Positions 27,701-44,561 of a stretch of DNA of 64,000 nucleotides are shown piece after piece. The first letter of the stretch is position 1, and each line of letters opens with the position of its first letter. Under the pieces are notes generated by a model that saw only the letters and a program-made list of their open reading frames with translations, searched no databases and was not told the DNA's origin. Location: assembly GCF_002753895.1 (NCBI RefSeq), contig NZ_NJER01000001.1:310001-374000 (forward strand). The letters are read 5' to 3'. This DNA comes from Halobacteriovorax sp. JY17. GTDB lineage: Bacteria > Bdellovibrionota > Bacteriovoracia > Bacteriovoracales > Bacteriovoracaceae. The position numbers were made by a program, and so were the translations under genes.

Positions 27701-27829
27701 CCTATCAATGGTAACTCTATTGGAAAGGTTAGCGGTAAGTACTGGAACGGACCAGTAGAAGAAGTTAGGTCAAGTATGGAGATGCAGTCAAATGAGTTCG
27801 ACGGCTCATGGTTAAGGGAGAGTATCTAG
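24746..27829 (+). CDS. Giant secreted protein of unknown function, coupled to a subtilase
   Basis: 1027 residues with a signal peptide (MSDLLKVILFTAFLSVSTFA-A). No family is recognised. The middle (about 430-500) has beta-like glycine-rich stretches (GAWVSPIVNGSLILSRDVVVGNHQG, FGFAVSLGANIGFEGLPVGYSAAMRGQVSYVKTY), which could be membrane-barrel or adhesive strands; other parts are charged. A few Cys occur only near the C-terminus (CSTT, IKCGNF, KCEDKF, SCLVDL), probably disulfides. AAGGA precedes the ATG. The stop overlaps the GTG of the subtilase gene (TAGTG), so both are made together. It may be the substrate, inhibitor or partner of that protease. It shares loose features with the 705-residue product at 54953. 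Confidence 0.75.
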   Translation: MSDLLKVILFTAFLSVSTFAATELIPLDSSRIPSNDLIHPELGKISSETAWQLQNDSYNPLDLSKLDPEESAVWKHKEDFILNTEIDNFPVTQDGLVFLGTIASQSGTLRFSVLDEGTGNVLTIAIDKNLHTFFLRRNLLRKLGFIIPSMKYEKKLNIRFNSNEEKENFLNRVVPENTFGAPSRWLVADTEFSIDLQDVMVMLPTFNDHYNLAFGVPPKTLRTRTLRSLVVPYALLNLDESVNVLSWKAGRIEENAVELKHFTLADMNPTIDDAKWILNKIKLFERKDFEEIVQKSHYPKVVGDLLIEKLISRRNSLMKVFAIDIDDIAFNSKISSGENLKEGRLLQEKFEGYGSRFAYGDPESPFKEFKYSLLSKLQSDVIENLVGRVNTELQAFDINDARLDYYKEEFQEGLDHYVETGEFLEQQVGAWVSPIVNGSLILSRDVVVGNHQGSDHLVQTADTFGFAVSLGANIGFEGLPVGYSAAMRGQVSYVKTYTHLKPVSSLKASLKEPYKNMVVSLFKRDVEAELRNLTNLESVTDEEIREEKAKIIVDSLSKKIGVGESLVMTDRLTPSFMGRGGYSWANTKISLTLNSNSILVKRIHIYRSTADTIQVYIDNGELGELGFILGVDNHIPITRIDFSRAKGKYNIEMYNVNINPDLVENPNLFKGATALNALLQKGEKELLENYQSPYRVENDFRDTSTKYSFLNWRLKKLKKRGKISVLTPDKFEANFYKYTHEKQIGANNWAFGRDVVNYYLNQITEHITLRNEPWKNPARTFTGVSSTEGFRFESRFSEETSGTKKYKDAFLAMEVRKEGWKIKEKKLKKVIKELNDQFGADIFSDDDANDATTLKLYSIFVNLNIYEKGVWNILNYSEKQITELGRKYRRLNYDRRHCSTTRLNGAPIATKIKCGNFQVFIDKRAKCEDKFKNNKDSAVSCLVDLAILYESYLEFKDFKEIIGKDNIYIYGKITGFREESDILTSPINGNSIGKVSGKYWNGPVEEVRSSMEMQSNEFDGSWLRESI

Positions 27830-30648
27830 TGAATAAGTTAATACTATTTTCTCTCTTTTTATCTTTAAACTCATTTGCTAATGATCCTCTCTCGAGTATG
27901 CAGTGGGGAATTAAGAATATTGGGCAACCTATTTTTCGTGCAACAGGTGAACTTACTAGAGAGCTTGTAAGAGGAGTTCCAGGGCAGGATATTGGACTAC
28001 CTGAAAATTATGTAGCATCTAAGAAGAAAGTTGTTGTGGCCGTCATTGATTCAGGTGTGGATATTTTCCATCCTGATTTAAAAGAGAATATCTGGCTAAA
28101 TCCTAAGTGCAAAGGTATGAGCGAAGAAGAAATGGCCAAGGAAGATTGTCACGGTTGGAATTTCCTAGATGGAAATCCTGATGTGACAGATGATATTGGT
28201 CACGGAACACACGTTGCTGGAATTATTGCAGCAGCTGAGAATAATGGAATTGGTATTAAGGGAATAGCTTCAAAGAATGTTGAAATTATGCCTCTTAAAA
28301 TCTTAAACTCAAAAGTGAAGACCTTTGTTTATGGGAAGCAGGTCATTACTAATATTATCGCAGATGCAATTGCCTACGCGGTAACAAATGGAGCTTCAGT
28401 CATTAATCTAAGTCTTGGTTGGCCAGCTCTCATTCATACGAAGAAAGTTCGCTATGCTATTGATACTGCAATCAAGAGAAACGTTGCGATTATTGTTGCT
28501 GCAGGAAATAATAATAAGAAGTTACCAGTCTACCCTTGTTCATACGATGAAGTCATTTGTGTTGGAGCTATGGACAATAAAGGGGAGATTCCTGAATTTT
28601 CTAATTTTGGAGGAAAAGTTGACCTAACAGCTCCAGGAGAGAGTATTCTCAGTACTTATCCGAGAAATTTAGAGTCTAGAATCTTAAGAATTCCAGGTTA
28701 TGAAATTAAGCAAGGTTCATCACAGGCAGCTCCTTTTGTTTCGGGTCTTGTGGCCTTACTTAAGTCAAATAATTTAGAAATGAGTTTTGATGAGATTAAA
28801 TATAGACTTTTTAAGAGCGCTACAATTAGTGACTCTAATAAGCGTGTGAAGTACGGAAAAGTTAACTTTAGTAAAATTCTCGATACAGATATTACTAATG
28901 GATACCCACTTTTTAAATTTAAAGCTCTCTCGGAAGTTAGAGTTCTAGAAGATGGAACTTTTGATTTTAATCTTTCATTTAGATCTCTTGGGAAAGATAT
29001 TTCAAAATTAGATTTTGAAGTAATTATCAGAGATGGGCAGAGAGTTATTTTAAGTAAGAAATTTTCTAAAGAAGAAGTTTCTCAAACTGAAAATTCTAGT
29101 GTTCTTGTGAAGGCCAATATTTCTGACTTTAGAACTTCGTCTCATTTAAGTTTAGATGTTAAGTGGAATGGAATTACTTTTGGCCATGAGATCGCTCTGG
29201 TTAGAGATATGCTCAAGGTTGCTGATAAGAAAACTAAGAAATTACCTTTTAAAGACTCTGAAGTTCTCTCAATTGAAAATGGAAGAATGTCGTCAGGACT
29301 TAGAAAAGTTGTATCAAATAAATTTGACAGTCATAGTCTTGATTACTTTGTTCAAAGAAAGGCAACGACAGCTGGAACATCGCTTGTGGAGTTGGCAAAA
29401 ATTCATACGGATAGCATTAAGAGAATTAGGATCGAAATTGCTGAGATTGGAAAACTCATTAATATCATCAAAAATGATTTTAACAATGATGGTGCTGAAG
29501 ATTATATGATTTACTCTCTTTCTAAAGAAGAGAGGCACCTCGTTTTAAGTTTTGTAAACTTTGAAGGAAAGCCTTTATACGGGGATCATTCTCAGTGGTT
29601 CTTAGAGATTTCAACTTTTGAAGGACTACCATTCTTTAATGGTGAAATTCGTTTTGAATTCTTAAATGTCGATTTTCTAACATTTGGAAAAGTTAAAGTT
29701 CCTGTTTTTATGAAGAGTTGGCTCATGCCAGAAGCGGATAATACAAGAGACCCGATAGATCGTATTCCTGATGGAGTTGCTTCAAATAAACCATACTTTT
29801 TAAATCCTATTATTTTAAACGGTGAAGTAAGTTTGGAAGTTAGAACTTTAGCATCGCTTTCATTTTTAAATGATTTTAGAGAGAAGTTTTCAATTGGAGC
29901 TAGAGAGAGCTTGGCCTTTGACCACCTCTTTGATCAAGATAAATTATCGAACTCTCTTGAAGCAATTATTATTTCAGGGAATGAGTTCTCAAAGAGGTAC
30001 TTCCATATTAATTACTTGGAAAAGGGGACTTATTCAGTAGATGAGATATTCTTCTATGGTTTAAGCCTAGATTCCAATAGAACTCTTATCTCAAGAAAGG
30101 ACTCTACTCAGTATAATGCTTCGTTTGCGCTTAACTCTAGACAAGAACTTCGAACAGTTTTTTGGGATTTGAGTGGTGAAAGATCAGTTCAAAACTTTAA
30201 AACTGAGAGTTGGGGGGATTTGATTATAGATATTTTTGACTTCAAAAAAAGTGGTAATGAAAGCCTTGTTTTGCTTGAGTCTAGATACTATATCCATGCA
30301 ATTGACAACGATGGCCCGTCCCAGAAGCTTCCAATTAACCGAGAAAGTAGCTTTCCGGGAGTGAGTTTTTCTGAAACCTTTAAGAAGGTAAATATTGAAA
30401 CGAGAGACTCTAAAGCGAGAGGTATTCTAGTTGATTCTTCTCTTATTTACGGAGATCGCCTTTATTCAATGGTCTTTAATGATGGAGAGTTCGCATCGCC
30501 TATCTATTCTAGTTTTACTATTCCTTCGAATTGTAAGTATCTAGATGTAAGTGAGTTCGAGAAGGGGAGTTATATTGTACTTGCCTGCCAAGATAAGTTT
30601 CTAAGATCGACTCTTGAGTTAGTACCTTTAAAAGAGAGAGTTGAATAA
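27829..30648 (+). CDS. Secreted subtilisin-like serine protease (S8) with large C-terminal extension
   Basis: 939 residues from GTG 27829 (AAGGGAG six bases upstream; an ATG at 27808 lies inside that site region). Signal peptide ends near NSFA. The S8 catalytic domain spans about 65-345: Asp74 (VIDSGVD), His125 (GHGTHVAG), Asn227 (AAGNNN) and Ser298 (GSSQAAP, where GTSMAAP is usual). Two Cys pairs (Cys94, Cys107 and Cys237, Cys244) could bridge. The 600-residue C-terminal part has beta-rich, FG-GAP-like or jelly-roll segments (NDFNNDGAEDYMIYSL) and no named domain. A secreted protease fits predation or envelope processing. It overlaps the convergent gene by 21 bases. Confidence 0.9.
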   Translation: MNKLILFSLFLSLNSFANDPLSSMQWGIKNIGQPIFRATGELTRELVRGVPGQDIGLPENYVASKKKVVVAVIDSGVDIFHPDLKENIWLNPKCKGMSEEEMAKEDCHGWNFLDGNPDVTDDIGHGTHVAGIIAAAENNGIGIKGIASKNVEIMPLKILNSKVKTFVYGKQVITNIIADAIAYAVTNGASVINLSLGWPALIHTKKVRYAIDTAIKRNVAIIVAAGNNNKKLPVYPCSYDEVICVGAMDNKGEIPEFSNFGGKVDLTAPGESILSTYPRNLESRILRIPGYEIKQGSSQAAPFVSGLVALLKSNNLEMSFDEIKYRLFKSATISDSNKRVKYGKVNFSKILDTDITNGYPLFKFKALSEVRVLEDGTFDFNLSFRSLGKDISKLDFEVIIRDGQRVILSKKFSKEEVSQTENSSVLVKANISDFRTSSHLSLDVKWNGITFGHEIALVRDMLKVADKKTKKLPFKDSEVLSIENGRMSSGLRKVVSNKFDSHSLDYFVQRKATTAGTSLVELAKIHTDSIKRIRIEIAEIGKLINIIKNDFNNDGAEDYMIYSLSKEERHLVLSFVNFEGKPLYGDHSQWFLEISTFEGLPFFNGEIRFEFLNVDFLTFGKVKVPVFMKSWLMPEADNTRDPIDRIPDGVASNKPYFLNPIILNGEVSLEVRTLASLSFLNDFREKFSIGARESLAFDHLFDQDKLSNSLEAIIISGNEFSKRYFHINYLEKGTYSVDEIFFYGLSLDSNRTLISRKDSTQYNASFALNSRQELRTVFWDLSGERSVQNFKTESWGDLIIDIFDFKKSGNESLVLLESRYYIHAIDNDGPSQKLPINRESSFPGVSFSETFKKVNIETRDSKARGILVDSSLIYGDRLYSMVFNDGEFASPIYSSFTIPSNCKYLDVSEFEKGSYIVLACQDKFLRSTLELVPLKERVE

Positions 30649-32289: not shown

Positions 32290-33321
32290 ATGACAAATGA
32301 AAACTCAGTTTGGAAATTAATCAATGATTTAAATACTAAGAAAGGTATCACTGAAATTGTTATTAATGGTCCTAAAAATGTCTTTGTTGAAAGGGCGGGG
32401 CAATTTATTCAGTTAAATGTTTCTTTAACAAAGCAGGATATTTATAAATTCATCGAAGAAATTGCTGACTACAATAAGAAAGTATGTAATCAACAGAGTC
32501 CAATCATGGATGGAAGCCTCCCTGATGGATCAAGAATAAATGTGATAGTGGAGCCTTTTGTCAGTGGCTTTCCATCTATTTCGATTAGAAAGTATATAAG
32601 AACAATTACAGACTTTGATAGTTCACCCGGAATATTTAGTGTCGATCCAAAATGGGTTGAGTTTATAAAGGCCGCAGTGTCGGCGCGAATGAATATCATT
32701 ATCTCTGGAGGGACGGGAGTAGGTAAGACAACTTTTATGAATCTCTTACTTAAAGAGGTGAGTCCTGCTGAAAGAATAATTACCATTGAAGATACACTGG
32801 AGCTAAATCTTTCGACACCAAATCTTGTAAGATTAGAAGCGGGAAGTAAGGTTGAAGCGAGTGATATTTCAGTTAGAGATCTTGTGAAAAATACTTTAAG
32901 AATGAGGCCTGATAGAATTATTCTTGGAGAAATTAGAGGAGGAGAACTCTTTGATCTTCTCCAGGCGATGAATACTGGTCACGACGGTAGTATGACTTCT
33001 CTTCACGCTAATTCAGCCGCAGAGTGTATCAATAGAATGGAAACTCTATTTCTCATGTCTGGATACGATGTTCCCTACCATGTAGTGAGAAGACAGATGA
33101 GTACGGCAGTGGATTTAATTTTTCAACTCTCAAGAGATAGAGAGGGGAATCGTATTTTAAAAACTATTCAAGAAATTACAGGAATGGAAGGAAGTAATAT
33201 TCTCTCTCAAACCATTGCTACTCATGAAGATGGAAAACTTGTGAGTACTGGAATTACTCCAAAGAATATGGATAAGCTCCATCATATGGGAGCTCTTCCA
33301 ATAGACTTTGCTAATCAGTGA
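32290..33321 (+). CDS. CpaF/TadA-type secretion ATPase, orphan
   Basis: 343 residues. The N-terminal domain (1-115) has KGITEIVINGPKNVFVERAGQ and DGSLPDGSRINVI, typical of CpaF. The ATPase core has Walker A GGTGVGKTT (140-148), an Asp box (TIEDTLEL), the Walker B region RPDRIILGEIRGGE and a His box (GSMTSLHANSA). These hexameric ATPases power Tad pilus or related secretion systems. It lacks the N-terminal extension of many CpaF proteins and no tadB/C, cpaE or pilin genes are near. It could serve a pilus locus elsewhere, or work with the unknown protein before it. Confidence 0.9.
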   Translation: MTNENSVWKLINDLNTKKGITEIVINGPKNVFVERAGQFIQLNVSLTKQDIYKFIEEIADYNKKVCNQQSPIMDGSLPDGSRINVIVEPFVSGFPSISIRKYIRTITDFDSSPGIFSVDPKWVEFIKAAVSARMNIIISGGTGVGKTTFMNLLLKEVSPAERIITIEDTLELNLSTPNLVRLEAGSKVEASDISVRDLVKNTLRMRPDRIILGEIRGGELFDLLQAMNTGHDGSMTSLHANSAAECINRMETLFLMSGYDVPYHVVRRQMSTAVDLIFQLSRDREGNRILKTIQEITGMEGSNILSQTIATHEDGKLVSTGITPKNMDKLHHMGALPIDFANQ

Positions 33322-35749: not shown

Positions 35750-35776
35750 AAAAAAAGAAGGGCCTTAACTGGCCCT
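35750..35776 (-). terminator. Rho-independent terminator
   Basis: Read on the minus strand: AGGGCC, six-base loop, GGCCCT, TC and seven T (35756-35750). It closes the transcript of the gene ending at 35775 and overlaps its stop codon. Confidence 0.85.
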
Positions 35777-36719
35777 AGTCTTCTTGTGAATTTAAGGCCT
35801 GATGACCTTCATAGTTTATAATTTGTATTGGTAAGTCCTTGTATTTCTCTCCCGCAGCTTCAAGGGCTTCACGGTTTAGAGGGCATCCAAGGTTTTGTCC
35901 TGTTCTTTCGTTATATTCAGCAATTCTTTCTTTTACTTTCTTGAGCAAACTCTCTGTTCTTAGCCAAGAACAGTTGATTCCTTCATCCCATGCGCTGTCA
36001 ACGAAGACTCCAAAGTCGATTTCTTTAACTTGCTGCCACTTTTGATCTTCGTCGCATGTAATATATGGCGAGACTTCTTCTTGAGTGAGGACATCTTTAT
36101 GTTGACCAAGCATTGTATTCCAAAAACGCATTCCATTAAAGTTTGCAACCATATCACCAAAGCTCATGACACCTGTCATAGTCGCTCCCATAATTCCGGT
36201 CTCTGCTCTGTAGCCGATATTCATTGCGTCCTCTAGGGATTTTCCTTTTAAGTAATACTTCTTAAAGTAGTTAAAGCCTGAGCCTGAGAAGTGCTCGAAC
36301 TTATCTGTACCAACGTGAACTCCACCTACATTCATAATTTGTCCTGCAGGGTCGCTAAATTTAGCAAGGAGTCCAGGGATAATGGCCTGGTACCATTTGA
36401 ATTCTTGGTATATTGAATCACTTGTCTTAGTGGTGACTTTATCTAATTCATCAGTATCTACAACCCACTTCCCAAACTCTGAAGTGTATTGATTCTTGAA
36501 TTTCTTTCGAAGCGCTTTGTAGAGTTTTTTCTCAGAGCAGGCGTGATCTTTCTTATTTAACTTTGTGAGGGCGTCTTCCATCATAAAATTTGCTTTGTCA
36601 TTTAAAGCGGGAAGAGAGTCTTTCAATGGTTGTGACCTATTATTAAAAGGATCTATCTCTGAGGAGTAGACATTAGTCATCGAAATGATTGTGGCAAGAA
36701 TTAGGGCCTTTTTCTTCAT
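35775..36719 (-). CDS. Exported protein of unknown function
   Basis: 314 residues with a signal peptide (MKKKALILATIISMTNVYS-S). The central part contains GGVHVGTDKFEHFSGSGFNYFKKYY and GYRAETGIMGATMTGVMSFGDMVANFNGMRFW; the DKFEHF-then-aromatic pattern recalls the DKxxHF motif of DUF2279/YfiM-like proteins, and the acidic and His residues might bind metal. Three Cys in the C-terminal part and one in the N-terminal part may form disulfides. The ribosome binding site AGGA lies within a hairpin arm (36727-36762). The protein follows the 710-residue secreted gene by 87 bases. Confidence 0.7.
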   Translation of the reverse strand: MKKKALILATIISMTNVYSSEIDPFNNRSQPLKDSLPALNDKANFMMEDALTKLNKKDHACSEKKLYKALRKKFKNQYTSEFGKWVVDTDELDKVTTKTSDSIYQEFKWYQAIIPGLLAKFSDPAGQIMNVGGVHVGTDKFEHFSGSGFNYFKKYYLKGKSLEDAMNIGYRAETGIMGATMTGVMSFGDMVANFNGMRFWNTMLGQHKDVLTQEEVSPYITCDEDQKWQQVKEIDFGVFVDSAWDEGINCSWLRTESLLKKVKERIAEYNERTGQNLGCPLNREALEAAGEKYKDLPIQIINYEGHQALNSQED

Positions 36720-36726
36720 TTTATAA

Positions 36727-36762
36727 TCCTGTGATATTTTTTTTCTTATTTATACCACAGGA
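36727..36762 (-). promoter_or_regulatory. Leader hairpin that covers the ribosome binding site of the 35775 gene
   Basis: An 11-pair stem (arms 36752-36762 and 36727-36737, one G-U pair, 14-base loop). The promoter-distal arm includes the AGGA ribosome binding site of the minus-strand gene starting at 36719. Opening of this stem would be needed for translation. Confidence 0.5.
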
Positions 36763-36806
36763 CTTTTTACGCATGGCGCACTTTGTAGAAATTACATCGT
36801 AACAAT

Positions 36807-38939
36807 TTATTTATTCACTTTTTGGTACTCTTCAAGTCTCTTATCTTTGCTAACTGCTGAATATCTTTTAGAAATCATCTGAAAGATTGATCCATTCTTT
36901 GAGCCAACATCTGAAGCGACACCTCTAAAGTTTAGAACACCATTCTTATTTGCACCCTTCTTTCCAAATAGACTTGAGAAAGGGTTTTCAGCTTTTTCTT
37001 TCTTAGCAACTCTTCTAGCGCCTGAGCTAAAGCTTAGTCCGGAACCACCAGAGTATTTAACTTTCTTTGAGCTTCCTACATATGGTTTATTGGCACCTTG
37101 ACCACCAGTTCTGGCCGAACCATTGGCCGGAGCTGAAGCACCACCACCGGCGGCTCCGCCTCCGCCACCACCGGCACCTAGACCGTTAGCCCCTGTTGAA
37201 GAAACTGAAGCAGCTCCAAGTGGAGAGTCCGCTAATCCACTGCCTTTATCAACAGCATCAATAGTGGCACCAATTCCACCTATAGTATTTGTTCTATTTG
37301 TATTATCTCCAGCGGCTTCCGTATTCCTCGTGGTCTCATCGATTGGAAGAGTTGAGTCAGAAGTTGCAAATTGTAATCCGCTAACACTGATACCATCATT
37401 ATGGTAACCAACACCTCTTTCATACTTGGCATTCACACAATTTTCAGAACCAGGATTAATCTGACATTCTGTTGCTAAAATATCTTGTGAGTCATAGGCG
37501 AGGGATTCTGGATCGTGATCATTAACTAATTTAATGGCGTCGCCAACTCGTCCAGCCTGCTTATCTAAAATCTCTGCAGTCCCAAGCATTGTGGCGATAT
37601 TTACACCAGCATCAATTAGGGCCTGTTGAATAATTTCTCGCGCGTCCCCATTTTGAATGAGAGCGTGGCTCGCAGTTTGTCCAACATTTATTACATAGGT
37701 AGAACATGCTCCATCTATATTACTTTTAATCTCTTCTGCTATTCCTGGGTCATTAAAGGGGCCAATTTTATCATTCACAGCATTTTTATAAAGTGCAGAT
37801 AAGTTTGTACTAAAATCTTGTAGATTGTTGGCACTTTCTATTTTGTTTTGGCACTCTTCTCCTATTTGTTCTATAGAAGGTATCTTTTGCATTGAATGCC
37901 ATAGAGCTCCAACAGCAGCTGTTTCTGTTGCAGCTCTTGTTCTTGCCATCTCTGCTTTTTGTTGAATATCTTGCTTCTGCGCTTTTAAGCCTGCAGCTGC
38001 ATCTGTTTGAGCATTCTTGGCCATCTCTGTTTGGATGTCCATGGACTTATCCATATATTGAAATTGTTGAACAGTCTCTACCGCTTTTCTTCCAATGAAA
38101 ACTGCATCGTAATAAGTTGCAGCTTCAGCACACGCTTTATAATCTTGAGTTTCGTAGCCAAGACTTTCACATTTTAATTTTCCATCGTAAGTTTTTGAAC
38201 TTTGACTTCTATTGTTTTCAGATAGATCCATTCCCCTTACTGCTTTACCATTAGAAATAACAGCATAAAGGGCCGAGCATTTTGCAACATTTTCAATTAT
38301 AGTATGATACGTCTTCTTATAACTTCCAATAATTGTGTTTAAGTTTTTTAAAAGTTTAGAAACTTCTTTTTCGGAGATATATTTATTTATTTTTGCCAAC
38401 TCTTGAAATTTCCCAGGTAGCGTTGCTGAACAACTTAATCCAAAATTATTGTCATTACATCTAGTTTCTACGGAATTTTGTTGATCGACAAAAAATTGTC
38501 TACTGTCTCGTGCGCCTCTTGGCATAATAAAATATCCTGCTCCCATTGAGTTAGTTTGATCAGGATCTTGTATTAATACATATGAATCGCTTTTAATCTT
38601 ATAGGTATCTAGATCTATAAAGTCAGAAATTTTCTTATCTTCTAAGAAAGTGGCAAGGCTAGGTGAAACCTGTGTGATGTTTTTATTAAACTCAATGGTG
38701 GCTTCTTTAATTTCTCTTTTAGCGTATTCACTATAGTCTGGCTTGCTCGTTTTCCAGCCTTCTCCAGCTCTCTCTTGGCATGAAGAAATTTCTGGACCAT
38801 ACAACTCATTCTTAATAGTTTTCGGAGCACTCTCAACATTTGGAGGGATGTCCAGAATATCTGCATAGGTTTGACTAAAGAGACTCGTAAATACAAAGAG
38901 TACAAGAGTAGGAAAGTGTTTTTGAGTTTGTTTTTTCAT
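36807..38939 (-). CDS. Large secreted Ala/Gly-rich protein of unknown function
   Basis: 710 residues with a signal peptide ending near QTYA. Residues about 30-290 hold about ten Cys (SSCQERAG, ETRCNDNNFGLSCSA, KCSALY, LKCESLGYETQDYKACAEA) and are probably a disulfide-bonded domain. Residues about 290-345 are a long helix rich in Ala, Gln and Lys (QTDAAAGLKAQKQDIQQKAEMARTRAA). Residues about 570-650 are low-complexity Gly/Ala/Ser (GAGGGGGGAAGGGASAP), locally GC-rich. The end is basic. No family recognised. A TATAAT box sits 34 bases before the ATG. It may be co-transcribed with the exported protein at 35775. Confidence 0.75.
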   Translation of the reverse strand: MKKQTQKHFPTLVLFVFTSLFSQTYADILDIPPNVESAPKTIKNELYGPEISSCQERAGEGWKTSKPDYSEYAKREIKEATIEFNKNITQVSPSLATFLEDKKISDFIDLDTYKIKSDSYVLIQDPDQTNSMGAGYFIMPRGARDSRQFFVDQQNSVETRCNDNNFGLSCSATLPGKFQELAKINKYISEKEVSKLLKNLNTIIGSYKKTYHTIIENVAKCSALYAVISNGKAVRGMDLSENNRSQSSKTYDGKLKCESLGYETQDYKACAEAATYYDAVFIGRKAVETVQQFQYMDKSMDIQTEMAKNAQTDAAAGLKAQKQDIQQKAEMARTRAATETAAVGALWHSMQKIPSIEQIGEECQNKIESANNLQDFSTNLSALYKNAVNDKIGPFNDPGIAEEIKSNIDGACSTYVINVGQTASHALIQNGDAREIIQQALIDAGVNIATMLGTAEILDKQAGRVGDAIKLVNDHDPESLAYDSQDILATECQINPGSENCVNAKYERGVGYHNDGISVSGLQFATSDSTLPIDETTRNTEAAGDNTNRTNTIGGIGATIDAVDKGSGLADSPLGAASVSSTGANGLGAGGGGGGAAGGGASAPANGSARTGGQGANKPYVGSSKKVKYSGGSGLSFSSGARRVAKKEKAENPFSSLFGKKGANKNGVLNFRGVASDVGSKNGSIFQMISKRYSAVSKDKRLEEYQKVNK

Positions 38940-39959: not shown

Positions 39960-40787
39960 TTAAAGAGTAAGGATTTTTATTTTTTCTTTGTCATTAAAAA
40001 TTTCAACTTCTTTTGAATTCTCTTTTAAACAAGTTTGAATTCCATTCTTTTTTAAGAATTTACTATAGCAGAGGTTAATGGCCCTTGCTGCAGCCGTCGC
40101 CGTGGCCCTACTTGTTCCCTTGAAAAAATCACTATCTCCACCACCACTAAAAAAATACTTCATCTGAGTAGAATTAATAAGTGTGTAATCAGGCCTTGCC
40201 GGTAGATCTTTATTTGCTTTAGAAAAGTTTCCGACAGTAAAGACGTTGGGATTCTTATATTGATTTTGTGGCCAAAGAAGAGTCTTATAGCCAATTCCTC
40301 TACCAATTGTTGCTCCTGCTACAAAGAGAGGTGTTTTAATCTCTATAGACGCAAGCTCTTTAGTTCTTCTCATTCCCGCAGCGATGATGTAGAGGTGATA
40401 ATTTTCTTGGTTAGTGAAGGCCTTCTTCCACGAGTCTATTTGTTGATGAGCATTTCGATCAAAAATAATGAGAGGGAAAACTTCAACTTCCTCTTTAACT
40501 TTTAAAGTACTTAGAAATTGTTTAAGAACCCAATTCCCGTGAAGTCTTCTATCTGTTTCTTTTAAGTCATTACATTTAAAGTTATTACTTCTTGTTAAGT
40601 CTACAGAGGGATGAATTTTAATATTCTTTGGAAAACTTAAACTCTCACTACAGAAACCTGTATCTAAAATCGCAATTTTTAAAGGAGCACTATGAGTGAG
40701 GGGTGAGAGAAAGAGGAGGGACAGAAGTCCCCCCTGTATTTTTAATTTTAAATTAATCTCTTTCTTCGGCCATGGCAAAAGGTGCAT
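39960..40787 (-). CDS. Degenerate subtilase-like exported protein
   Basis: 275 residues from the ATG at 40787 (AAAGG five bases upstream), overlapping the preceding gene by 35 bases. A signal peptide precedes SAPLKIAILDTG. Asp42 (ILDTG), His83 (RRLHGNW) and Ser226 (FFKGTSRATATAAARAI) occupy the S8 triad positions, but the oxyanion-hole Asn of AAGN is Met139 (IIAAGMRR). It is small for a subtilase and lacks extra domains. It may be a weak protease, a dead enzyme or a specialised processing factor for the giant protein encoded just before it. Confidence 0.78.
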   Translation of the reverse strand: MHLLPWPKKEINLKLKIQGGLLSLLFLSPLTHSAPLKIAILDTGFCSESLSFPKNIKIHPSVDLTRSNNFKCNDLKETDRRLHGNWVLKQFLSTLKVKEEVEVFPLIIFDRNAHQQIDSWKKAFTNQENYHLYIIAAGMRRTKELASIEIKTPLFVAGATIGRGIGYKTLLWPQNQYKNPNVFTVGNFSKANKDLPARPDYTLINSTQMKYFFSGGGDSDFFKGTSRATATAAARAINLCYSKFLKKNGIQTCLKENSKEVEIFNDKEKIKILTL

Positions 40788-43700
40788 GAAGACCTTTATT
40801 AGCTGAAACTTTCTTATAGAGATTCTTGTCATACTTCTTAAGATCCTTGTAACTCTTATCAACATCTTTTAGTGCTGCTGAAATAAAGAGTGCTCCAAAC
40901 ATTCTATTTTGTATTGCAAACTTAACACGATCTTCAATTGGATCATAGAACTTAAGAGCATTTCTCATAGTATAGTAGAAATCGTGAGCAAAGAGAAATA
41001 GTGAAACATTTTTATCTCTAGTTTTTCCGTCAACTAATTTTCCAAGTCTATTATGAAAGAGAGAATCATCTTCCTTTAATAAATTTGCAATCTCTTTTTC
41101 TCGTCCAAGCCCACTTCCACTTAAGTCGTAGTGCTTGTTAATTCTCATTGTCTCATCAATTCCTCTAATCATTCCCATTTGAAGAAGTTGCTTATCCGCT
41201 GTACTTGAAGCAAAGAATGAATTCTTAGAAACAGATGATTCAATCTTCTTAAGAATTTGGTCATTAGATAGTTTCATTAATTCAGCAAGTGCTAAATACT
41301 TCTTATAAGATTTAATATCAGAAGAAAGAACTGGAACAGCAGTCTTTAGTCCTGAAGCTCTCATTGGGTTTGCAAAGATTACTTTCGTACTTGTACTAAC
41401 TCCTGAAACATTGAAGTCGAAGTCTTCTGCATCTTTGAAAGTAGAGATGGACTTAATTCCATTGAAACCATTTTGAAGTTCGTCAATTAAGACAACGGAT
41501 GTGCTTGAAGATTTCTTAAGCATTCCATCTATATCTTTAACGGCACCTTTTTCTAAGAGAAGAAGAGTTTTCCCGTTAACACCTTTTGAAAGAGGACTGT
41601 TGTTAAGAGTTCTTAGAGAAGTATCAAGAACACTTGCACCCTGTAATCCACCCATTGTTGCAAGTAAGTCTACTAGATCTCTAGCTGATTGATCAGAGTT
41701 TGCTACAACTACTGGCTTTCCTGATTTTTCAACATAAGGAGCCTTCGCCATTGTCACGAGATTTCTATCTAGCACACCAAGAGTCACTCCATTCTTTGTT
41801 ACTTTTGCTTTAAAAGTAATTGGAGAGTAGATATCTGCTTCATTTGAAACATTTACCACAGAGTCCTTTAATGCAACTGAAGTATTAAGTGCCGATACCG
41901 AGTTAAATTCTTTCGTAATAATTTTTGATTTTGCATCTGTACCAACTTCAATTTTAATTTCACCAGTGTAATTTCTCTTAGAGTTATTTAAGAGATTAAC
42001 GCTCATTGTATTACTCTTTCCAATGATTAGTGTTCCATTAGTTGATAGGCCTGTAAGAGCAAGAGGATAGGCAACTCTATGAGACTTAGTATCTCCTGAG
42101 TTTACTTTCCCTTGAGCGATATTGGCGTAGTGTCTTCCTTGGATTGCCGCCTCTGCAGTCACAGGAGAGTAAACGCTAAGAATTTTAGTATCTGCCGAAG
42201 CTAGTCCACCTGAAACCTTTGACTTTGAAGCTCCCTTCACAGTTGTTGTTGATTTTGCTGGAATAGAAGCAATCGTTGATTTCTCCCCATTTTCCATAAT
42301 AACAACAACGTTCTTAGCTTCTTTGTCTCCAAAGTTTTGAATAACAAGGTTGTGAAAAGTCGTCTCACCTGGTTGGAAGACACCATCTTTCGCTGCTACT
42401 CCATTTATACCACCATCAACAATTGAAGATGAGATATACTTTAAAACAGAATTCTCTGCGTAGACTTTTGATACCGCTGCATGTCTCTTAGCTCTAAAGA
42501 TTTCTGTTTGAGCTGCGATATTTGTGTTGAATGTATTTGCTTCAACTCTTCTGAATTCAGCACTTCTAATACTTTCGTACTGTGACTGATATACAGAAGA
42601 TTCAACATTTCTATAAGTTGTTTGATACTCATTAGAAGATGTATTTGGCCTTAAGCTAAACTCTGTTCTGTAGTGGTTATAAGCACTATCGTAGTGAACT
42701 CCGTAGTCTCTATTGTAAGCATCTGATTCACCTTGGTCGTATCCGGCTTGTCTGTCATTTGGGTAGGATCTTCCATAAGAGTCATCATAGTTATTTTGGT
42801 AGCTTGCAGTATATGAATCATTATAGATTCTTGGAACAACAGTTTCGTAAGTTGATCTAAGTCTATTTCTATATCTATTCTTATATCCATCTTTGAAAGC
42901 AAGCTCAACGATCTTTCTAGCGAAACCACCTTCAGGGTTGAAGTTTCTCCCCCTGTGATCTACTGGAAAGCTTGGAATCACTCTGGAGAATGATCCTGCA
43001 AATGAGCCTTGAACACTCTTTGTCTCTAGTGATCTGCTTTCAAATTTCTTAATGGCCTCTTGTTCACCATTCTTTGTTCCAATTTGGTTACCTGTTTGAA
43101 TTGCTCTTTGTATTCCCGCTTGTGAGCCTTGGTCTGCTCCTACACTTGCTGCATCAGATGAGTTTGCTCTATTTGTTCCGTCAACTGTTGCAACTCTCTT
43201 GGCGGCATCAATATTTCCAGCGTAAGTACCTTCTCTTGTTCCGGCCTCTGTTCCCGCTTGAAGAGCTCTCGCTGCTCCGTCGTGCTGTCCTTCTTGATAA
43301 CCAATATCTCTTTGGCGTTCTCTACCGTCTCTTGTTCCATCGATTAGGCCATCACTTTCACCGTCTCTAGAACCGTAGTGAGTTCCAAGACGATTTGAAA
43401 GAAATCTTCCATCTGATTCACCGTCTAGGGAACCTTCATTTCCACCTTTTGAATTTGCATCTAAGACTCTTGCAATTATTCTCTCTCTAAACTTTTGACG
43501 ATCTAGTTGAGCGATATCAAGAGCTGCCGCTAAGTTCTTTGTTTCTCTTTTTAGTGTATTTAACTGATTACTTGCAACGTTTAACTGATTCGTTGACGCT
43601 GCCAATTCTTTCTTACTTTCAACAACTTTCTTATTCTTGTTAGTTATCTGTGTATCGAGAGCATTGATTTCTTTTTTAAGGCCAGCTATTTTATTTTCAG

Positions 43701-44346
43701 TTGCAGTTAAGTTCTTTTGAATATTTGCGACTTTCTCTGTGAGATTACCTGCTTGTTTTTTTAGTTGAGCAATTTGTGACTCATAGACTGCAATATCTTG
43801 CTTTAATTCTTCAATCTTCTTCGTACAGGCCGGAGCTGGTGTTGCCACACAGGCTGCTTCTTGTTTTTCTAGCTTCTGTTTCTTATTTGAAAGAGTTCCA
43901 TTGGCCTGAGTTAGCTCTAGTTCTTTCTTTGCAAGCTTGTCTTTAGCATTAGTGAGGTTTGATTGAATACTTTGAATTTGATTCTTATTCTTTTTTAACT
44001 CATCTTCACTTTTAGATTTCTCAGTGATGGCCTTGGAAATATCTGTTGTTAGTTTAGATATTTCTTGCGCTAGTCCTTGTTTCTTCTTTTGAAGATTATT
44101 AACTTGCGTTTGTTGTCTATTGAGCTTTGCTTGCGATTGCTCGAAGGCAGCCTTTGTCACTTCAACTTTTCTAATTCTATCTTGTAAGTCTGGATCATCA
44201 TTAATTTTAAAGCTTGGGTTTCCAATATAACCTCTGGCCCAGTTTGGATCATCCGCTAGGATGGTAGGAGAAATCGAAAATAAAAGGGCAAGTGTTAGTG
44301 AAGTGGTGGCCTTAGTGTTGCTTCTTAGCTTCATTAATAATTTCAT
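40753..44346 (-). CDS. Giant secreted coiled-coil protein with Gly and Tyr tetrad repeats
   Basis: 1197 residues from the ATG at 44346 (GAGGAG ten bases upstream; the frame is open further up without a site). Signal peptide ends at PTILA-DD. Residues about 55-285 are a long coiled coil of Lys/Gln/Leu repeats interrupted by one CVATPAPAC pair. About 300-427 has Gly at nearly every fourth residue (GESDGLIDGTRDG). About 487-606 has Tyr or Phe at every fourth residue (YNDSYTASYQNNYDDSY). The remaining 590 residues include beta-rich, Ig-like segments (FHNLVIQNFGDKEAKNVVVIMENG) and a helical end. No family named. It looks like a large cell-surface or periplasm-spanning fibre. Translation runs into the subtilase-like gene. 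Confidence 0.8.
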   Translation of the reverse strand: MKLLMKLRSNTKATTSLTLALLFSISPTILADDPNWARGYIGNPSFKINDDPDLQDRIRKVEVTKAAFEQSQAKLNRQQTQVNNLQKKKQGLAQEISKLTTDISKAITEKSKSEDELKKNKNQIQSIQSNLTNAKDKLAKKELELTQANGTLSNKKQKLEKQEAACVATPAPACTKKIEELKQDIAVYESQIAQLKKQAGNLTEKVANIQKNLTATENKIAGLKKEINALDTQITNKNKKVVESKKELAASTNQLNVASNQLNTLKRETKNLAAALDIAQLDRQKFRERIIARVLDANSKGGNEGSLDGESDGRFLSNRLGTHYGSRDGESDGLIDGTRDGRERQRDIGYQEGQHDGAARALQAGTEAGTREGTYAGNIDAAKRVATVDGTNRANSSDAASVGADQGSQAGIQRAIQTGNQIGTKNGEQEAIKKFESRSLETKSVQGSFAGSFSRVIPSFPVDHRGRNFNPEGGFARKIVELAFKDGYKNRYRNRLRSTYETVVPRIYNDSYTASYQNNYDDSYGRSYPNDRQAGYDQGESDAYNRDYGVHYDSAYNHYRTEFSLRPNTSSNEYQTTYRNVESSVYQSQYESIRSAEFRRVEANTFNTNIAAQTEIFRAKRHAAVSKVYAENSVLKYISSSIVDGGINGVAAKDGVFQPGETTFHNLVIQNFGDKEAKNVVVIMENGEKSTIASIPAKSTTTVKGASKSKVSGGLASADTKILSVYSPVTAEAAIQGRHYANIAQGKVNSGDTKSHRVAYPLALTGLSTNGTLIIGKSNTMSVNLLNNSKRNYTGEIKIEVGTDAKSKIITKEFNSVSALNTSVALKDSVVNVSNEADIYSPITFKAKVTKNGVTLGVLDRNLVTMAKAPYVEKSGKPVVVANSDQSARDLVDLLATMGGLQGASVLDTSLRTLNNSPLSKGVNGKTLLLLEKGAVKDIDGMLKKSSSTSVVLIDELQNGFNGIKSISTFKDAEDFDFNVSGVSTSTKVIFANPMRASGLKTAVPVLSSDIKSYKKYLALAELMKLSNDQILKKIESSVSKNSFFASSTADKQLLQMGMIRGIDETMRINKHYDLSGSGLGREKEIANLLKEDDSLFHNRLGKLVDGKTRDKNVSLFLFAHDFYYTMRNALKFYDPIEDRVKFAIQNRMFGALFISAALKDVDKSYKDLKKYDKNLYKKVSANKGLHAPFAMAEERD
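42531..42899 (-). repeat. Coding repeat: Tyr/Phe every fourth residue
   Basis: In the giant coiled-coil protein, Tyr (or Phe/Leu) falls in one phase of four for over 70 residues (18 of 19 phase positions from the first Phe to YDSAY are aromatic, Leu or small breaks), then shifts phase and continues as YxxxY and FxxxxxxxF. Such spacing would give an aromatic stripe on a helix. Confidence 0.75.
43066..43446 (-). repeat. Coding repeat: Gly every fourth residue
   Basis: About 25 glycines spaced by multiples of four, many as DGxxxG/EGxxxG, over 127 residues of the giant coiled-coil protein, with a phase change in the middle. It resembles the GxxxG tetrad pattern of Yae1-type domains, a helix-packing motif. 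Confidence 0.75.
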
Positions 44347-44561
44347 TACAAGCATTCTCCTCAAAATTTTAGGTGTCACTATGGCCTTGTAAAGACTATT
44401 TAGTTGCAAGCAGACACCAGTTAGTTCCATTCTGTCCCTAAAAAGATGTCCATTTCTTCTTTTGATGGGTGATGGTTAAATAGATAGCAATGACTATGCC
44501 ATCTTTTTCTTTGCAATTAAATTCATTGTTGCGCACAGTGTAGAAACAACATGATTTCTTC

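Follow-up and report, generated by a model that had tools for sequence, protein, structure and literature searches.

The rod gene, its partner and its relatives

The window, that is, the whole stretch of 64,000 nucleotides analysed here, comes from a member of a group known for predatory bacteria, and carries on its minus strand the gene for what we call the rod protein (open reading frame 40753-44430, 1225 amino acids), present as a single copy in this genome. Residue numbers count from 44430, along the 1225-residue frame. Comparison with orthologue starts indicates that translation most likely begins at residue 29 (44346), the same start as in the original prediction, and a signal peptide follows it by eye, so that the protein looks exported, as had been proposed. 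The combination of parts had been called unfamiliar, and indeed no Pfam family reaches its cut-off in a scan of the whole window protein. The features of the locus are as follows.

44254..44346, minus strand: start and signal peptide, residues 29-59 (by eye; orthologue starts agree)
43471..44193, minus strand: coiled-coil hairpin, residues about 80-320 (AlphaFold2 helices 80-196 and 200-422; match to an SMC hairpin)
43825..43851, minus strand: Cys194-Cys202, at the hairpin tip (both at least 90% conserved in 15 aligned orthologues)
43042..43446, minus strand: Gly-tetrad helix, residues 329-463, with slips at 410 and 427 (stripe statistics and predicted helix)
42916..43038, minus strand: conserved linker, residues 465-505 (length and invariant residues)
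42454..42915, minus strand: Tyr-tetrad helices, residues 506-659, stripe at 512-584 and 602-634 (stripe statistics and AlphaFold2)
41737..42450, minus strand: two Ig-like beta domains, residues about 661-898 (structure match, fold only)
40756..41736, minus strand: alpha/beta domain and helical C-terminus, residues about 899-1225 (AlphaFold2 secondary structure)
39960..40865 (frame as listed), minus strand: divergent subtilase-like exported protein, directly downstream of the rod gene

A disulphide between Cys194 and Cys202 is possible. The linker has 41 residues in the window protein and 40-42 in 41 of 80 members, and its residues G475, F477 and F481 are invariant in 15 orthologues.

The subtilase-like gene, whose true start is probably nearer 40787, is a frequent companion of the rod gene. 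Among 49 loci (47 orthologue loci and two from another family) it immediately follows the rod gene, on the same strand, in 39 and is elsewhere in the locus in five; in the remaining five it was not found in the fetched DNA, some of these loci ending at a contig edge. The D/H/S triad motifs were recognised by pattern in 41 of 45 partner genes; one of the other four is cut at a contig end and three have, by eye, a variant Ser motif. The window copy scores below the Pfam cut-off for PF00082 (E 0.0055, 16.5 bits vs 21.8). Methyltransferase-like and channel-like genes, both recognised by eye, are flanking genes less often, in 13 and 12 loci, respectively. Beside members without the coiled coil (L124, L128, L133, L154 and others), 11 loci have a small conserved gene for a lipoprotein-like product of about 180 amino acids. 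The window encodes another, far larger subtilase-like exported protein (27808-30648, plus strand, 946 amino acids, by eye) at a position unrelated to the rod gene, and a CpaF/TadA-like secretion ATPase (32290-33321, plus strand, by eye), with no other recognised pilus genes in the part read. Two more exported-looking proteins lie downstream of the rod gene (35775-38939, minus strand), with relatives in three and five same-genus loci.

The original prediction had suggested a search for the same periodicity in related genomes, and it is widespread there: with a threshold of E<=1e-14, a profile of the Gly and Tyr module matched 82 of 368 genomes of the phylum, of which 32 belong to ten other families. 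A protein search found the rod protein in 15 of 59 genomes, counting the window's own, and a profile of the C-terminal half found orthologues in 49 of 129 Bacteriovoracaceae genomes; one relative, in a Bacteriovoracaceae metagenome-assembled genome, is 69% identical. Members consist of a coiled coil (absent to more than 1,000 residues), a Gly helix, a linker and a Tyr helix, followed by an Ig-like stretch in those read that far. The runs comprise about 40 Gly and 37 Tyr tetrads in one subfamily, 29-37 and 33-36 in members without the coiled coil and 17-25 and 14-19 in a short group; the Tyr-run caller halted at the slip in many orthologues, giving 17-22 Tyr tetrads there. The segment layout reads as mirrored in the subfamilies, with Gly segments long then short and Tyr segments short then long.

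The short group (L022:5389-9291, L023:5693-9538 and L134-L136) combines its 17-25 Gly and 14-19 Tyr tetrads with a much longer coiled coil and a different beta domain; when such a short-repeat paralogue was sought in the window genome, the sole match was the rod gene itself. Near another rod gene, an 801-residue exported-looking protein (L097:8866-11271, minus strand) has 11 Gly and 23 aromatic tetrads. Several family genomes (G074, G021, G115, G026 and others) give many short Gly-stripe matches of about 55-130 residues in frames of 300-500 amino acids, some of which may be FliH. Among plasmid records, the window module gave one short weak match and a distant member none, and searches of open-access papers brought up nothing describing this family, to judge by titles and abstract openings.

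Period-four stripes on predicted helices

The recurrence of Gly and then of aromatic residues at every fourth position is real, and clearly exceeds that of shuffled sequence. In residues 329-455, 17 of 25 glycines share one phase of four, a number reached in 0 of 5,000 shuffles (mean 8.6), and among the other periods tried enrichment appeared at eight only, a multiple of four. In residues 502-661, 14 of 20 tyrosines share a phase (0 of 5,000 shuffles as high, mean 7.2), as do 15 of 26 when Tyr and Phe are taken together (1 of 5,000). The periodicity had been called strict; period four stands, but both stripes slip in register. The Gly phase moves by +1 at 410 and by +1 again at 427, and the aromatic phase, constant over 512-584, is shifted by two over 602-634. 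The stripes are the best-conserved feature of the rod protein: in 15 orthologues, 24-71% identical to the window protein, 19 of the 21 stripe positions in 329-409 are 93-100% Gly or Ala (the exceptions being 345 and 373), and the stripe glycines are the majority of the invariant columns in their region.

Structure prediction places the tetrads on long, confident helices, in agreement with the original prediction. AlphaFold2, run on the mature protein with 35 sequences (mean pLDDT 86, pTM 0.48), gave helices at 80-196, a tip, 200-422 and 427-464, then a short strand and the Tyr helices at 506-552, 557-593 and 600-659, with beta and alpha/beta domains after them and helix at the C-terminal end. 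The 230-residue coiled coil that had been placed before the Gly stripe is thus a coiled coil, but a hairpin (about 80-196 and 200-320) with the Cys pair at its tip, and its second strand runs unbroken, as helix 200-422, into the Gly stripe. Among solved structures, the coiled-coil hairpin of an SMC protein is a match to it (5nnv_B, Z 13.8, rmsd 5.1, 228 aligned). Residues 661-898 match tandem Ig-like barrels, as in FXIII (5mhl_A, Z 10.9, 189 aligned, rmsd 3.9), a match of fold only in which many Ig-like proteins tie.

The module modelled alone with 50 sequences (pLDDT 87.5, pTM 0.63) reached pLDDT 95-98 in ten-residue blocks over 366-445 and 546-635, and its two confidence profiles are alike at a lag of ~180 residues, as parallel pairing would give, a likeness that is only suggestive. 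Foldseek against the PDB found no match to the module alone at E<=0.001, which is no proof of a new fold; VIA-align against 38 chains gave at best Z 4.5 (84 aligned, rmsd 10.8), and a search of the PDB by sequence gave four weak matches, whose alignments show repetitive stretches of low complexity in every case.

Co-variation and a proposed arrangement of subunits

Co-variation between the two stripes was sought in an alignment of 80 modules, taken from 85 matched stretches after five were dropped (coverage <=75%, or a second stretch of the same protein). Gap-free, background-corrected mutual information was computed for pairs of one residue from the Gly helix (326-464) and one from the Tyr helices (508-660), and bands eight offsets wide were tested against 1,000 column permutations, which ignore phylogeny. 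An earlier mean-field analysis had given couplings 365-551 and 401/405-588; these were driven by gaps, from one or two sequences with deletions, and gaps were therefore handled as missing in the later mutual information.

Among the strong pairs are nine at offset 188/189, distributed along the helices (421-610, 386-575, 338-526, 442-630, 376-564, 336-524, 434-622, 458-646 and 438-626); other pairs of the top 25 fall at different offsets. In the orthologues, which amount to about 28 effective sequences, the band held 9 of the top 30 pairs with seven residue classes, vs 1.6 expected (3 of 1,000 permutations as strong), and 15 of the top 60 vs 3.1 (0); with 20 letters it held 10 (2 of 1,000) and 12 (16), vs the same expectations. 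With all 80 sequences and 20 letters the counts were 11 of the top 30 vs 1.6 (0 of 1,000) and 14 of the top 60 vs 3.1 (3), and with seven classes the band was not significant (599 and 175 of 1,000 permutations as strong). Among the distant members by themselves it is weak or absent. The band appeared again in a full-length alignment made separately from 35 orthologues (11 of the top 30 pairs vs 1.6).

Two of the pairs swap charge. At 421-610, 33 of 48 orthologues have RE and 14 of 32 distant members have ER; at 442-630, 36 of 48 orthologues have RE, and of the 32 distant members eight have RD or RE and six have ER or EK. By our reading, most strong pairs join the residue immediately before a stripe Gly to a stripe position on the Tyr side. 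The association of a basic residue before Gly with an acidic stripe residue peaks at offset 188 (z 5.7, the next being 2.8), and two companion residue-code tests peak at 180 and 183. A Tyr-acid hydrogen-bond code was rejected, its best offset being 180 instead of 188, and a charge-covariance scan over all offsets gave no clear peak at 188.

The band method is noisy. For the coiled-coil hairpin, used as a positive control with an expected sum of 396, it returned 386 in one setting (8 vs 1.9) and 334 or 451-455 in others; among the negative controls, helix pairs went up to 3.3 and one beta-Gly window to 4.6. In one setting of the 35-orthologue alignment an antiparallel Gly-Tyr window reached 5.8 (6 vs 0.8).

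Two further observations bear on the pairing. Since both stripes shift by two, the spacing between them is unchanged modulo four, and in L031 a complete tetrad is missing from both helices, at 364 and at 549. Over the 80 sequences (two rows with large C-terminal deletions kept), the net change in length of one helix has a correlation of 0.01 with that of the other, and therefore there is no general length compensation within this alignment. Because of the co-variation, the shared register shift and the matched four-residue deletion, the stripes appear to form the two sides of a single parallel interface, residue i facing about i+188, a pairing drawn from modest sequence numbers. The original prediction had seen a Gly face and an aromatic face as separate surfaces; they seem instead to be two halves of one zipper, and the finding is both real and somewhat more interesting than first stated.

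Separate faces would go with homotypic packing, Gly on Gly and Tyr on Tyr between copies. Known GxxxG helices and the YG helices of SMN do self-pair, as far as the available text of PMC8287954 covers them. However, the Gly-Gly and Tyr-Tyr bands, which might also mark an antiparallel dimer, are nowhere strong or clear and are weaker than the Gly-Tyr band, and in several subfamilies the Gly run is about as long as the Tyr run (40/37 and 17/14-19 tetrads, for example); we regard homotypic packing as decidedly unlikely.

A parallel i+188 pairing within one chain would ask the 41-residue linker of the window protein to span about 206 A, its maximum reach being 156 A, and such a shortfall is seen in 62 of 80 members. 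Therefore the partner helix is probably in another subunit, and the Gly and Tyr helices would pair between subunits. The chain might instead simply fold back, its Gly and Tyr helices forming an antiparallel hairpin and the i+188 signal being an artefact of shared ancestry. This was our first inference, from the segment lengths and helix breaks, and was demoted after the co-variation: the mirrored segment lengths, the compact and conserved linker and the few effective sequences speak for it, but the antiparallel band at the required sum of about 976 is not significant and the charge swaps fall at one parallel offset. We consider it quite unlikely.

Our proposal, tentative and somewhat short of an even chance as a whole, is an exported rod or scaffold built on a parallel Gly-Tyr zipper, most simply as an antiparallel dimer of hairpins. 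The Tyr helix would pack parallel and in register on a Gly helix, Tyr and Phe filling the groove left by the glycines. The paired helices would come from different subunits, each chain running Gly up and Tyr down; in such a two-fold antiparallel dimer of hairpins the parallel offset arises by itself, and the mirrored segment order suits a hairpin. The dimer would form a rod of four helices, about 20 nm long, each end of which would bear coiled-coil arms and Ig-like heads.

A fibre or sheet at the cell surface had been suggested originally. The sheet is without support; the fibre is possible, and the antiparallel hairpin dimer fits at least as well. In a head-to-tail fibre each Tyr helix would lie on the next subunit's Gly helix through the same parallel interface, giving an open filament whose steps would measure around 20 nm. 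Both the parallel offset and the short linker would be satisfied, but the mirrored segment order is left unexplained and the coiled-coil arm and Ig-like heads need room at each step; we rate the fibre as unlikely.

For a four-residue repeat simple geometry gives a superhelix pitch of 46-59 A and a crossing of 41-63 degrees. General coiled-coil theory makes such a superhelix right-handed, and a right-handed crossing at the Gly face is expected from the repeat geometry. The Gly-Tyr pairing might represent a new coiled-coil class, a Gly/Tyr superhelix that is parallel and right-handed and repeats every four residues, in effect carrying a GASright contact over about 34 tetrads, or roughly 20 nm, and forming the rod of a phylum-wide exported family; we hold this to be possible rather than probable. 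Most conjecturally, the rod may serve as a spacer or adhesion scaffold at the cell surface, and the downstream subtilase may process the rod protein or be displayed with it; a biological role beyond that of an exported rod can only be inferred.

Comparison with known systems

As in a glycine zipper or GxxxG helix pair, a Gly or small residue occupies each fourth position on a predicted helix. GASright dimers consist of transmembrane helices that are parallel and cross with a right hand, with Gly at each fourth residue of a contact lasting a few turns. The rod, in contrast, would be soluble, a hetero-pairing of Gly on Tyr, and about 20 nm long. Tetrabrachion resembles the rod as an exported coiled-coil rod accompanied by a subtilisin-like protease; it is archaeal, and its coiled coil has four strands, is right-handed and is built from hydrophobic residues.

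Yae1 and Lto1 share with the rod, in their deca-GX3 motif, a run of Gly at each fourth residue, and are described in the available text of PMC4523923 as cytosolic Fe-S assembly adaptors. At E<=0.01, Yae1_N (PF09811) has matches in 11 of the 50 module members, the best at 1e-9, and none in the window module; the whole protein of L125 scored 26.2 bits vs 27.5.

The YG box of SMN is like the rod in carrying Tyr and Gly at each fourth position on helices of a soluble protein, and the Tyr and Gly of one short motif interdigitate in its YG zipper (both from the part of PMC8287954 available). The SMN box is short, with both stripes on one helix in a homodimer, whereas the rod has two separate helices of about 135-155 residues each in an exported protein. 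The SMN family is absent from the Pfam matches of 50 module members; what would argue for an SMN-like packing of Tyr on partner-helix Gly in the rod is the co-variation.

FliH/YscL, which is with the SMN YG zipper the nearest analogue, has a GxxxG repeat that is long, soluble and polar and lies on a predicted helix. In the available text of PMC2674601, the GxxxG runs of FliH reach m = 12, none of 85,770 PDB helices goes beyond GxxxGxxxGxxxG (four Gly in register), and long soluble repeats were called, in 2009, nearly unique to FliH, a structure being lacking. FliH models match the Gly run in up to 42 of 50 module members at E<=0.01. The window module scored 26.5 bits against the FliH model NF009925, vs a curated cut-off of 192, with only 59-105 of the module matched, and searches of the whole protein with Pfam and NCBIfam gave no FliH match in the C-terminal half, where the FliI-binding domain of FliH would be sought. 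FliH is a cytoplasmic flagellar stator, and the rod protein, with its signal peptide recognised by eye, is not of that kind. By our reading, the FliH and Yae1_N matches probably reflect a shared repeat character and not membership.

Unlike FliH, the rod has about 34 tetrads, is exported and has a Tyr partner helix, the rest of FliH being unmatched. Its Gly run is about three times FliH's longest, the same chain has a second helix able to supply an aromatic partner, and the natural variation in the family lets the Gly-Tyr pairing be read. If true, the proposal would provide a testable rule for how Gly and Tyr helices pair; the rod would be of a new kind, and the exported scaffold, with its partner protease, would extend across the phylum.
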